A stretch of DNA of 42,839 nucleotides from a virus: positions 1 to 42,839 of the IMG/VR virus record IMGVR_UViG_3300046328_000382. The stretch is one strand, 5' to 3'. A model generated the notes under the pieces. That model was not told where the DNA came from and ran no database searches. It saw only the letters and a list, made by a program, of their open reading frames with translations. The position numbers and the translations under genes were made by a program. Shown piece after piece: positions 23,795 through 27,672 of this stretch. The first letter of the stretch is position 1; every line of letters starts with the position of its first letter.

Positions 23795-24277
23795 TTAATT
23801 TGTTAAGTTATTTAATTTTTCTTCATATGCTATTGAAGCATCTAATTCATTTTCAAATCTTCCTAAATTAATAGTTTTTCCATTTACTTTTATTTTAGAA
23901 ATCCATTTATTCCTATTTTTATCCCAACTAACTCCAGTGTATTTAGACGATGATTTTAAATGTTTTCGATTAACGTTCTCTCTTGTAGTAATTATTTCTA
24001 AATTTTCAACATTATTATTAGTTCTGTTAAAGTCTATGTGGTTTACAACTAATTTATAACCGCATCTTTTATGGTTTAAAAATGACTCTGCAACTAATTG
24101 ATGGACTAACCTTGATTTTGACAAACCATTTATTACTAAATTAACTTTATAATATCCATCTAAATCTTTACAAGCGTTTAATATTTTTTGTTTATTGAAT
24201 TTTAAACTTTTTACATTGCCAATATTTGAAACTTGGTAATCTCCTTCATATCCAATTACATCTTTATATATCTCCAT
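23795..24277 (-). CDS. HNH homing endonuclease (NUMOD4-HNH-AP2)
   Basis: 160 residues. Residues 1-45 are a NUMOD4 DNA-binding module (YKDVIGYEGDYQVSNIGNVK). Residues 55-105 are an HNH nuclease (VNHIDFNRTNNNVENLEIIT). Residues 110-155 are an AP2-type DNA-binding domain (YTGVSWDKNRNKWISKIKVN). This is the classic build of free-standing phage homing endonucleases. It lies next to the tRNA genes and the structured RNA, which suggests it may have brought or target this region. Start overlaps the upstream gene by 14 bp. Confidence 0.88.
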   Translation of the reverse strand: MEIYKDVIGYEGDYQVSNIGNVKSLKFNKQKILNACKDLDGYYKVNLVINGLSKSRLVHQLVAESFLNHKRCGYKLVVNHIDFNRTNNNVENLEIITTRENVNRKHLKSSSKYTGVSWDKNRNKWISKIKVNGKTINLGRFENELDASIAYEEKLNNLTN

Positions 24278-24449: not shown

Positions 24450-24466
24450 AATTTTAATTTTTTTAG

Positions 24467-24546
24467 TGATTGAGATAGGACTCGAACCTATAAGGATTTC
24501 TCCACGCAGAATCACTACGCTTGTTTACCAATTCCAACACTCAATC
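24467..24546 (-). tRNA. tRNA with long variable arm, anticodon reads GAT
   Basis: 80 nt. Acceptor stem GATTGAG/CTCAATC is perfect, with discriminator A. D arm TTG-GAATTGGTAAA-CAA resembles tRNA-Leu. The anticodon stem GCGTA/TGCGT has two G-U pairs and a 7-nt loop GTGATTC (GAT at 24511-24513). A variable arm GGAGAAATCC forms a hairpin, and the T arm is ATAGG-TTCGAGT-CCTAT. A class II body (Leu/Ser/Tyr type) with a central GAT (Ile) triplet and T at position 37 is unusual, so the isoacceptor is uncertain. No CCA is encoded. Confidence 0.75.
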
Positions 24547-25193: not shown

Positions 25194-25222
25194 CAAATAT
25201 AATACTTTAATTTGAATTACAA
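25194..25222 (-). promoter_or_regulatory. Promoter TTG-N18-TATATTTG, leaderless start
   Basis: On the minus strand the -33 TTG is at 25222-25220 and the -7 TATATTTG at 25201-25194, spacing 18. Start codon at 25189. The -33 element lies in the 3' end of the HNH gene. Confidence 0.8.
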
Positions 25223-25740
25223 AATGTTTTGTACGTTTTATTTAATTTTATTTTTGATATTCCTGATTCGCACATATTAAATCTTATTGATAATTCTTTT
25301 AATTTTAAATTAGAGTTTCTAATAAATATAACATCTTCTAAATTTAATTTTGATTTTGAATTATTAACCCCTCTATTTTTTACTAAACCTAAATTTATTG
25401 CGTGATTGTTGTTTTCTTTTATAGTACACCATTCTAAATTAGATATATCGTTATTTAACTTATTTCCATCAATATGATTTATATAATCTTTATTCTCTAC
25501 TTTTTCAATAAAATGCAAAGCTATCAATCTATGAACTTTAAAAGTTTTTCTTTTGTTATTGATTTTTAAATCAACTACGTAATATCCAGTTTTTGAAATT
25601 TGATTTTTTAAAATCCTTTCTTTAACTAAACGTTTTGAATTTACTCCATTTTTAGTAATTCTCTCTAAACTTTTAACTCTACCATAATTAGATATTTTAA
25701 AAATTCCTTCATAACCATTAACGTCTTTCCATTCTTCCAT
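25207..25740 (-). CDS. HNH homing endonuclease (NUMOD4-HNH-HTH)
   Basis: 177 residues from MEEWKDVNGYEGIFKISNYG, the normal start of a NUMOD4 domain; an in-frame ATG six codons upstream (25758) lies within the leader hairpin and is less likely. HNH core INHIDGNKLNNDISNLEWCT (about 85-105). The C-terminus has LEDVIFIRNSNLKLKELSIR and a helix-turn-helix typical of homing endonuclease tails. It is preceded by a promoter and a structured leader (25740-25839), so its expression may be controlled by premature termination. Confidence 0.88.
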   Translation of the reverse strand: MEEWKDVNGYEGIFKISNYGRVKSLERITKNGVNSKRLVKERILKNQISKTGYYVVDLKINNKRKTFKVHRLIALHFIEKVENKDYINHIDGNKLNNDISNLEWCTIKENNNHAINLGLVKNRGVNNSKSKLNLEDVIFIRNSNLKLKELSIRFNMCESGISKIKLNKTYKTFCNSN

Positions 25741-25751
25741 ATAAGCAAAAA

Positions 25752-25821
25752 CCTGCACATCAAAAGGTCGTAGTCTTTATCAATGCAGGAATTTAATAAA
25801 ATTTTTAGTTGTAGCTACGAC
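25752..25821 (-). promoter_or_regulatory. Structured leader with interleaved stems (attenuator-like)
   Basis: In minus-strand order: GTCGTAG (25821-25815), CCTGCA (25789-25784), CTACGAC (25773-25767), TGCAGG (25757-25752), then TTTTTG. Stem 1 pairs the first and third segments (7 bp), stem 2 the second and fourth (6 bp). The interleaved order is a pseudoknot or a pair of alternative folds; stem 2 plus the T tract looks like a terminator immediately before the HNH start. Confidence 0.7.
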
Positions 25822-25831
25822 TCTACTAATG

Positions 25832-25839
25832 CAAATATA
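25832..25839 (-). promoter_or_regulatory. -7 element before the HNH leader
   Basis: TATATTTG on the minus strand, within a few bases of the first leader segment; a TTG occurs with only 15 bp spacing (25857-25855), so the -33 is weak. The transcript would begin at the first arm of the leader structure. Confidence 0.55.
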
Positions 25840-25844
25840 ATAAA

Positions 25845-27071
25845 TTATTCGTTACAATCTTGTTTAAAATTTGATAATGTGTAATTTTTTTTGTTTAAAA
25901 CTGATTTGTAAATGTTTTTTTCTATGCCGTTTTTTGCGAACACCCAGTAAACATCATTAGATGGTCTATCAGAAGTCGTAAGTCGTGAACGTGATTGCCA
26001 ATAAGATGTAGCAGAGAAATCAATGTTGTAATAGACAAGATATTTTGCGTTTTTTAAACTTATACCTTCACGACCTGAAACAATTTGTAAAGCTATAACT
26101 TTATTTGTTTGATTAAATTCATCTAAATCTTCTGTTAAATCACTTCCATAAACAGATTTTAAAGCATTAAGTTCCTCTTTAAACTTGTAGAATATAGCAA
26201 TCTTATTAAATCTAAATCGTTCTTCTATGAATCTCGCTTTACTATAATCTATAACTTTAGAAGTTCCATCTTCAAATTTGCAAGTACCACTTGATAGTTG
26301 GTGGATCTTCTGCATTAATTTTACACCAGTATCGCCAAGTATCAATCCACTCGTGCCTTGAACAATTTTATCACGTTTTAGTCGCTTAATAATTTCATAA
26401 GTAATAGGTTGCATATCGCAATATAAGATATGTTCGTTTACTTCGGATGTAAATCCAGCTTGTGCTTGTGTAAAAGTTATAATATAAGGCTGTATTTGTG
26501 GTAAAATTTTACTTTCAATGCCATCTTTATAAACCTTAACTCTCGCATATCCAAGATTCTGTTCCGTAATATTAACGTAGTCATTCGCCCATTTGTAGAA
26601 ATTTGTGTAATGTTTAAAAGGAGCGAAGTCATTAATCCAAAACTGATGGAATATTTGAGAAAAACTTTCAGGCGACATTGTTCCACTCAATGATATAGAA
26701 GGTATTTTATGAAATCTTTTCTTATATATTTTAGTAAACTTATTAATCTTTGGAAATGTACCGAAAAGACCGTGAGATTCATCACATATAACAATATCAA
26801 AGTCATTTGATTCTATTTTGTGGATTGATTCTTTATTTATAACAGTTAAGTCGTATTCATATCCAAAAGCATCGTAATCTCCCTGTATAGAACTAAACGC
26901 TTTGATTTTTGTTATAAATAGAACTCTTTTAGCTCCATATAACTTACAAGTTTCAAGAGCGGTTAAAGTTTTACCCAAACGTACTTGCATATTTAAAAAT
27001 ACAAATCCACGTTCTGATAGGATTTTGGTAGCTTTTCCAGCTATTTCCTTTTGATAATCTCTTAATTCCAT
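25845..27071 (-). CDS. SNF2/DEAD-type superfamily II helicase
   Basis: 408 residues. N-terminal LRDYQKEIAGKA (Q-like motif), motif I QVRLGKTLTA (about 30-40), motif II DESH (about 97-100), motif III LSGTMSP (about 130-136). In the C-terminal RecA domain, VSGREGISLKNA (motif V) and YWQSRSRLTTSDRPS (motif VI). Compact phage helicases of this type act in DNA replication, recombination or annealing. Second gene after the Mom-like gene in the same direction, separated from it by only 1 bp. Confidence 0.9.
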   Translation of the reverse strand: MELRDYQKEIAGKATKILSERGFVFLNMQVRLGKTLTALETCKLYGAKRVLFITKIKAFSSIQGDYDAFGYEYDLTVINKESIHKIESNDFDIVICDESHGLFGTFPKINKFTKIYKKRFHKIPSISLSGTMSPESFSQIFHQFWINDFAPFKHYTNFYKWANDYVNITEQNLGYARVKVYKDGIESKILPQIQPYIITFTQAQAGFTSEVNEHILYCDMQPITYEIIKRLKRDKIVQGTSGLILGDTGVKLMQKIHQLSSGTCKFEDGTSKVIDYSKARFIEERFRFNKIAIFYKFKEELNALKSVYGSDLTEDLDEFNQTNKVIALQIVSGREGISLKNAKYLVYYNIDFSATSYWQSRSRLTTSDRPSNDVYWVFAKNGIEKNIYKSVLNKKNYTLSNFKQDCNE

Positions 27072-27072
27072 A

Positions 27073-27672
27073 TTATAGTGTGGATTTGAAGTTCGCGACT
27101 ATTTTTTTCTTGCGTTTTAATTTATTACTTATCTCGTATAGCCATATTATTTTTGGTAATCCAGTTTTTATTATTGCATCTCCAACTTTAACAGCATCTC
27201 TCAATTCATAAGAATATGGTCTATCAATACTTAAACTTCTTGGATGATATATTTTATCTTTCCACTCTACAAATTTAGTCGGTGTAGTTTCTCCTATGTT
27301 TTTGAAATTAGCAGCTTTATAAATAGTTCCGCTGTGTCCTACTGTTTTATCTGAATAACTTAATACATAATTATAATCAGTATTACTTGCACACCACTTT
27401 ATAATTTGAGATAAAAACCAGCTTTCGCTGTTGCAAGGGGTGTCATCTAAACAAGCCATACGTCTAATATCTATGCAATTATTATATTTTTTTTCGTGCC
27501 TTGGTTTTCCCATTACACTACCTCCTACAAGTAATCCATCTATAAACATTCCAAAACATATACTTATTCCTCCGCCCATAGCTCCCTTTTTATAGTGGTA
27601 TTGTTCAAAAATATGTCTAATATCTGCAAACTTACAAGTTCGTATTTCGCATTTTGTTTTGTCTAATTTCAT
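27073..27672 (-). CDS. Mom-like DNA modification protein (GNAT fold)
   Basis: 199 residues. It shows the Mom-family pattern: FEQYHYKKGAMGGGISICFG, then GLLVGGSVMGKP, IRRMACLDDTPCNSESWFLS, and LSYSDKTVGHSGTIYKAANF. Mom of phage Mu modifies adenines in phage DNA and protects against restriction; related GNAT-like proteins occur in many phages. With the C5 methyltransferase at 32076 this gives the phage two candidate DNA-modification enzymes. The exact modification cannot be told from sequence. TAATG overlap with the upstream gene. Confidence 0.8.
   Translation of the reverse strand: MKLDKTKCEIRTCKFADIRHIFEQYHYKKGAMGGGISICFGMFIDGLLVGGSVMGKPRHEKKYNNCIDIRRMACLDDTPCNSESWFLSQIIKWCASNTDYNYVLSYSDKTVGHSGTIYKAANFKNIGETTPTKFVEWKDKIYHPRSLSIDRPYSYELRDAVKVGDAIIKTGLPKIIWLYEISNKLKRKKKIVANFKSTL

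Follow-up and report, generated by a model that had tools for sequence, protein, structure and literature searches.

Introduction

In the pT181-type plasmid and phage P4 CI RNA systems, loop-loop pairing between two RNAs is linked to a terminator in the leader. The putL and putR sequences of phage HK022 encode antiterminator RNAs of about 70 nt, which consist of two stem-loops and are located at or near the 5' end of the early transcripts (PMC9378689). Hairpins sequester the ribosome site of the T4 and Aeh1 genes I-TevI, mobE and segB, and late promoters lying inside the hairpin escape this control (PMC3014915). The leader of T4 gene 32 contains an H-type pseudoknot 67 nt upstream of the AUG, to which gp32 binds (PMC3014915). 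Flavo-1 (RF01705), a structured RNA of Flavobacteriaceae, is found in Bacteroidota 5' leaders, and its function is unknown (PMC9723704, PMC2864571).

Here we describe a leader RNA in the DNA of a virus (IMG/VR record IMGVR_UViG_3300046328_000382); the whole stretch of 42,839 nucleotides that was analysed is referred to as the window. The leader belongs to a conserved RNA family of Bacteroidota phages that has no Rfam match and is new with respect to the open-access literature; the assignment of hosts relies on the type of promoter and on cultured relatives, which form three groups.

Architecture of the leader

The original prediction placed four segments in the order 1a-2a-1b-2b, followed by a T tract, between a -7 element and the start of an HNH gene. 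All of them were found in that order on the minus strand, flanked by a helicase stop codon (25845) and the HNH start codon (ATG, 25740-25738). Read 5' to 3', this strand carries TATATTTG, CATTA, hairpin A, a linker, hairpin B, UUUUU, GCUUAU and AUG. The -7 promoter element TATATTTG (25839-25832), a TAnnTTTG box of the Bacteroidota sigma-A type, stands immediately 5' of the leader, which spans positions 25827 to 25747. Hairpin A (25811-25826) has a stem of GUAG and CUAC enclosing the loop A GUCGUAG, the last seven bases of which (GTCGTAG, 25815-25821) constitute segment 1a. An A/U-rich linker of 21 nt (25790-25810), the AAATT end of which abuts stem 2, leads to hairpin B (25752-25789). Here stem 2, CCUGCA/UGCAGG (2a, CCTGCA, 25789-25784; 2b, TGCAGG, 25757-25752), is followed by an internal loop, UUGAU/UGAUG, with tandem G.A, by an inner stem, AAAG/CUUU, and by the apical loop A CUACGAC, which contains segment 1b (CTACGAC, 25767-25773). 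A U tract (UUUUU, 25747-25751) abuts the 3' side of hairpin B, and the start codon of the gene for a NUMOD4-HNH_3 homing endonuclease of 177 amino acids (25207-25740) lies 6 nt 3' of it in the window.

The apical loop CUACGAC is the exact complement of the hairpin A loop GUCGUAG. Since 1a forms the loop above a 4-bp stem and 1b the loop above the inner AAAG/CUUU stem, stem 1 is a loop-loop helix, and the interleaved stems make up an intramolecular kissing loop of 7 bp. On its own, hairpin A has little stability (-1.7 kcal/mol), compared with about -9.9 for the duplex of the two loops and a median of about -11.9 kcal/mol for hairpin B. Pseudoknot-free folding gave a z value of only -1.7; plain secondary-structure stability was therefore rejected as an explanation, and the support for the structure is comparative rather than energetic. 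The window copy was not flagged by a strict short-loop terminator scan, because its loop is larger than the limit of the scan. A coding reading, in which an upstream ATGTGCAGG in hairpin B would enter the gene, was also rejected: in the window the frame is wrong, and conservation is absent.

An architecture-only scan of loci that had partly been fetched by sequence patterns yielded at least 139 distinct copies linked to a promoter, with 19 loop sequences, from phage contigs and from cultured phages of three groups. The TTTG of the promoter is separated from hairpin A by 5 nt in 108 and by 4 nt in 24 of the 139 copies (132 together). In F. psychrophilum the TAnnTTTG box is at -12 to -5 from the transcription start (PMC9723704), thus transcription should start at the base 5' of hairpin A or at its first base; in the window the predicted start is the A at 25827, 1 nt 5' of the hairpin. 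The linker is 19-22 nt long in 130/139 copies, hairpin B has a 15-nt 3' arm in 117/139, and there is no correlation between linker length and hairpin B length (rho 0.09). By string matching the internal loop of hairpin B was classified as tandem-GA-like in most copies and as AGUA/GAA-type in some. An internal loop of the tandem-GA or loop-E-like kind points to a structure that is rigid or bound by protein, something more than a plain terminator. T occupies each of positions +1 to +5 past the base of the hairpin B stem in 91-99% of the 139 copies; most U tracts are only U5-U6 in length, and some copies (L217, L240 and L259) have GGGCATTAAC after hairpin B, without a direct U tract. In 83/136 copies 10-12 nt separate the stem base from the start codon, and in other gene families the spacing is 15-20 nt or more. 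Upstream of the start codon, U is found at -1 in 95% of the copies, positions -7 to -10 are U-rich, and A is found at -3 in only 34%. We regard as established where the promoter lies, that two hairpins are joined by a kissing helix, that a U tract is present and that the leader stands 5' of a gene.

In a subgroup of copies (L250, L254, L295, L308 and L315) CTATTTATATAA stands upstream in place of TAnnTTTG, the linker is longer and the internal loop is of the AGUA/GAA type. This subgroup precedes a different HNH family (MNYQRIYD) or GIY-YIG and probably belongs to another host or sigma factor.

Covariation of the helices

All helices of the leader covary. In 80 distinct sequences 97.8% of the cells were paired, and the covariation score was 0.273, compared with 0.070 for shuffled sequences and at most 0.046 in slid registers. 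Two kissing pairs had been left free by the search pattern: pair 11-82 is CG in 70 sequences, AU in 6 and GC in 3, and pair 14-79 is CG in 55, AU in 23, GC in 1 and UA in 1, which amounts to 34 double changes and a single broken cell. Compensatory changes occur likewise in stem 2 and in the inner stem of hairpin B, and the hairpin A stem varies with compensation among the relatives (GTAG, TAGG, TCGG, TCAG, ACAG, GTAT and others). In the leaders of cultured phages stem 2 is CCACCA/TGGTGG and CCTATTCT/AGAATAGG, and stem 1 is GTCGTCG/CGACGAC, all compensatory with respect to the window.

Because the search pattern had fixed the remaining kissing bases, two less biased tests were made. When only the promoter, GTAG-N8-CTAC and GGTTTT were selected for and the loop was left free, a downstream complement of at least 7 nt was found in 86 of 99 distinct stretches, as against 0.2% by chance. 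When the search used segment 1b only, 80 of 88 cases had an upstream hairpin of 4 bp (stem GTAG, TAGG, TCGG, TCAG or ACAG) whose loop contains the complementary 7-mer; among the remaining eight, most resemble hairpins in which a pair is G.U or mismatched. A structure-only scan of 3.3 Mb of loci, partly fetched by pattern, yielded 137 distinct matches compared with 2 in shuffled sequence, with 19 loop sequences and many stem sequences that were complementary throughout; in the window this arrangement was found once, compared with 0.03 per shuffled window. The compensatory changes that had been proposed as a check in related phages are thus abundant, and the suggested pseudoknot has turned out to be a real kissing loop under strong selection.

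Copies residing in the same contig differ in their kissing-loop sequence in all 12 pairs found (from L217, L228, L247, L256, L259, L273, L279, L290, L298, L311, L317 and L409). Since the probability of this by chance is 0.07, the difference is only a hint of selection against cross-pairing.

Distribution

The family was searched for by patterns, and all family counts are lower bounds. A search of viral contigs gave at least 109 viral stretches, 88 of them distinct, among the matches listed; in 84,980 bacterial and archaeal genomes there were five matches, of which one (L320, a contig of a Bacteroidetes MAG) was real. These numbers led us to reject a reservoir in host genomes: the kissing-loop leader is a phage feature, essentially absent from bacterial genomes. 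Nearly all copies come from metagenomes, and the phage records examined contain one or two copies each. By BLAST, the leader was found, about 80% identical, in 34 records of cultured Flavobacterium phages (Hattifnattvirus, Muminvirus and related) 5' of a NUMOD4 endonuclease gene, and in the Polaribacter phages P12002L/S 5' of a replication gene with an HTH_36 domain; BLAST of other leader subtypes against named phages gave no matches. A loose pattern made of the stem-2 and 1b sequences only returned mostly unrelated matches, because the stem-2 sequence is not conserved.

No Rfam family matched the window leader or its relatives at the gathering score, and in evalue mode the window leader gave one unrelated match (E = 7.8). 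The proposed comparison with group I intron and riboswitch models accordingly produced no covariance-model match to a known riboswitch or other Rfam family.

Downstream genes and insertion site

Among the 125 distinct proteins encoded downstream there are matches to HNH_3 (59), NUMOD4 (49), GIY-YIG (12) and AP2 (11). The remainder comprises, among others, ResIII helicases, BT4734/DUF3987 and DUF5906 primase-helicase-like and replication-initiator-like proteins, a DNA methylase, an AntA antirepressor and a family of 78-79 amino acids with the N-terminus MNTISVQGFK and no Pfam match. Among the relatives with the neighbouring helicase, the leader also stands 5' of a different HNH gene (L009) and of a GIY-YIG gene (L010). 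The leader is therefore specific neither for HNH genes nor for homing endonucleases: apart from GIY-YIG (L010) it precedes the HTH_36 gene of the Polaribacter phages and helicase, primase, replication, methyltransferase and AntA antirepressor genes. Since one leader serves unrelated nucleases, promoter and leader behave as a module.

L002, L003, L008 and L012 have an empty site, in which AATTTTAAA is joined to CGTGAAAACATTTTG. Compared with these, the unit inserted in the window consists of promoter, leader and HNH gene (approximate boundaries 25236-25862, minus strand); it sits in the last codons of the ResIII/Helicase_C helicase gene (25845-27071, minus strand), replaces the helicase C-terminus and supplies the stop codon. 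The gene beyond the insertion retains its own promoter, and the empty site lacks an intron 3' part.

In L017, L019 and L020 the leader has another location, inside a helicase stub. In these three loci a homing endonuclease unit is found about 130 nt upstream of the leader, at the helicase codon between SMEV and RTGKT (Walker A motif); the insertion has left a 5' helicase stub, and a complete helicase gene is downstream. This looks like an invasion replacing the 5' part of its target.

Some further features of these phages were observed. In the window another NUMOD4-HNH gene, which has an AP2 domain but no kissing-loop leader, lies near a tRNA-Ile(gat) gene (23795-24277 and 24466-24546, respectively, both on the minus strand). 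A Mom-family protein (27073-27672, minus strand; PF25680, E 2e-24) suggests DNA base modification in the window phage. AttC-like imperfect palindromes (TATAACGTTYCGC...GTTATA), each with an ORF and sometimes several per contig, were seen in the same Flavobacteriia phages, including the cultured hattifnatt (L289, minus strand, offsets 10766, 11550 and 11945; L255, L304, L325 and L011:2266), and they may represent gene cassettes of the integron type in lytic phages. An attC-like site is directly 3' of a kissing-loop leader in L240, L247, L260, L277 and L304.

A second form with 6-nt loops

Leaders with 6-nt loops, in which GGUCAG/CUGACC is fully paired and the stems are variable, occur in the same kinds of phage and precede ERF and AAA_24 recombination-type genes. 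Three of them (L486, L487 and L498) have sigma70-type promoters, called by eye, and Shine-Dalgarno sites; in these, hairpin B has the form of a GC-rich terminator with a T4-T7 run, 3' of which a separate GGAG-type site is found. The 6-nt-loop leaders with putative sigma70 promoters are the main evidence that the design in general would act on transcription.

Possible function of the leader

The best explanation, which we hold with moderate confidence, is that the leader is a cis-acting transcription attenuator, in which a terminator hairpin is tied to a 5' hairpin by the kissing helix. RNA polymerase would start at the sigma-A promoter, one nucleotide 5' of hairpin A, and in the emerging leader the loop of hairpin A would pair with the apical loop of hairpin B over 7 bp. 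Hairpin B and the immediate U5 would make up an intrinsic terminator, at which an RNA of about 80 nt would be released before the start codon; the kissing helix would govern how well this terminator forms, and the outcome would be low, delayed or conditional expression of the downstream gene. Several homing endonuclease families probably took the promoter-leader from early or replication genes of phages. We infer termination, as well as the direction of the kissing effect and any relieving signal, which might be a phage protein, the ribosome or the state of RNA polymerase. The attenuator reading agrees with a stable hairpin that runs directly into a U tract (T1-T5) and with the location of the leader, 3' of the promoter and 5' of the start codon in the gene that it would control. 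In the original prediction stem 1 was a candidate for a competing antiterminator, a role that does not fit two helices that are conserved together and sterically compatible; in a non-exhaustive look no conserved competing antiterminator pairing was noticed. Because the kissing helix would already form ahead of the synthesis of the 3' arm of stem 2 and can coexist with hairpin B, we lean to the view that kissing favours termination rather than hinders it. Against the attenuator count the distance between stem and start codon, which in most copies is shorter than transcription control needs, the shortness of the U tract, the rigid-looking internal loop and the GGGCATTAAC copies.

The sharply peaked start-codon distance and the composition of the bases before the start would be accommodated by translational control, in which a kissing-stabilised hairpin B about 11 nt 5' of the AUG blocks the 30S subunit, or forms with the U-rich tract a standby or enhancer site. 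In F. johnsoniae, A at -3 promotes initiation and structure within -20 to +20 lowers it (PMC6847099). Such control would have no need for a U5 tightly abutting the stem, the wider spacing in other gene families does not agree with it, and the 6-nt-loop relatives have a free Shine-Dalgarno site downstream of the hairpin; we consider it unlikely, though a serious rival. A hairpin that sequesters the ribosome binding site, of the T4 I-TevI/mobE type, was rejected, the ATG being mostly 10-12 nt past the stem base and outside the helix. An antiterminator or anti-pausing RNA that binds RNA polymerase at the 5' end of early transcripts, as HK022 putRNA does, would explain the rigid internal loops of hairpin B and the occurrence of the leader before replication and recombination operon genes, and it shares with the leader the position (putL is just downstream of PL), the size of about 70 nt, the plan of two stem-loops and the phage origin (PMC9378689). 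The conserved U tract abutting hairpin B fits a terminator and not put, and processive antitermination would be of little gain to single-gene homing endonucleases, which makes this reading quite improbable.

A transcript start predicted 0-1 nt from hairpin A would also suit a 5' stability element, a kissing-locked hairpin beginning at +1 or +2 that shields the phage mRNA from 5'-end-dependent decay; this would leave the U tract and the terminator-like hairpin unexplained, and we think it very improbable. The adjoining homing endonuclease gene had suggested the remnant of a self-splicing intron, and it could likewise point to an endonuclease guide RNA of the HEARO/omega-RNA type. We give practically no credence to either: besides the missing Rfam match and the structure of the empty site, there is no rejoined exon, the helicase C-terminus being replaced by the insertion, the identical leader type stands before GIY-YIG, helicase, primase and methyltransferase genes, and the neighbours are NUMOD4-HNH, GIY-YIG and non-nuclease proteins rather than IscB-type.

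Taking the two forms together, it is conceivable, as a tentative reading, that the leaders are a widespread phage-specific class of 5'-end kissing-loop RNA switches comprising two or more classes of loop (a variable one of 7 nt, and GGUCAG/CUGACC of 6 nt) in phages of more than one host phylum. They would control replication and recombination genes and would have been adopted by several unrelated homing endonuclease families, and the loops of copies in the same genome would have diverged, avoiding cross-pairing.

To our knowledge, little is known about the timing of early genes in Bacteroidota phages, and the leader is a candidate for such timing. Its function can be tested directly, because it is present in cultured, workable phages (those of Flavobacterium sp. 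LMO6/LMO9 and the Polaribacter phages). The leader represents an RNA family of exceptionally clear covariation that is missing from Rfam, and unrelated selfish endonucleases are seen to share one promoter-leader module. An intramolecular kissing loop joined to a terminator hairpin would, if true, be an unusual regulatory design.

Comparison with known systems

Unlike Flavo-1, the kissing-loop leader is phage-specific, and it gave no match to the Flavo-1 covariance model. In contrast to the pT181 and P4 CI systems, both kissing loops are within one RNA. With the T4 and Aeh1 hairpins it shares the position of a structure 5' of a phage homing endonuclease gene, but here the structure does not include the ribosome site and lies wholly downstream of the promoter. 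Like that of T4 gene 32, it is a phage 5' leader with a pseudoknot followed by A/U-rich sequence before the start codon; it differs in that the pseudoknot is a kissing loop and the downstream genes are many and unrelated. HK022 put is similar in having two stem-loops just downstream of a phage promoter, the earliness of the promoter being deduced in our case from the genes that follow, whereas in the leader described here a kissing helix of 7 bp joins the loops, and the second stem continues directly into U5 in the manner of a terminator.
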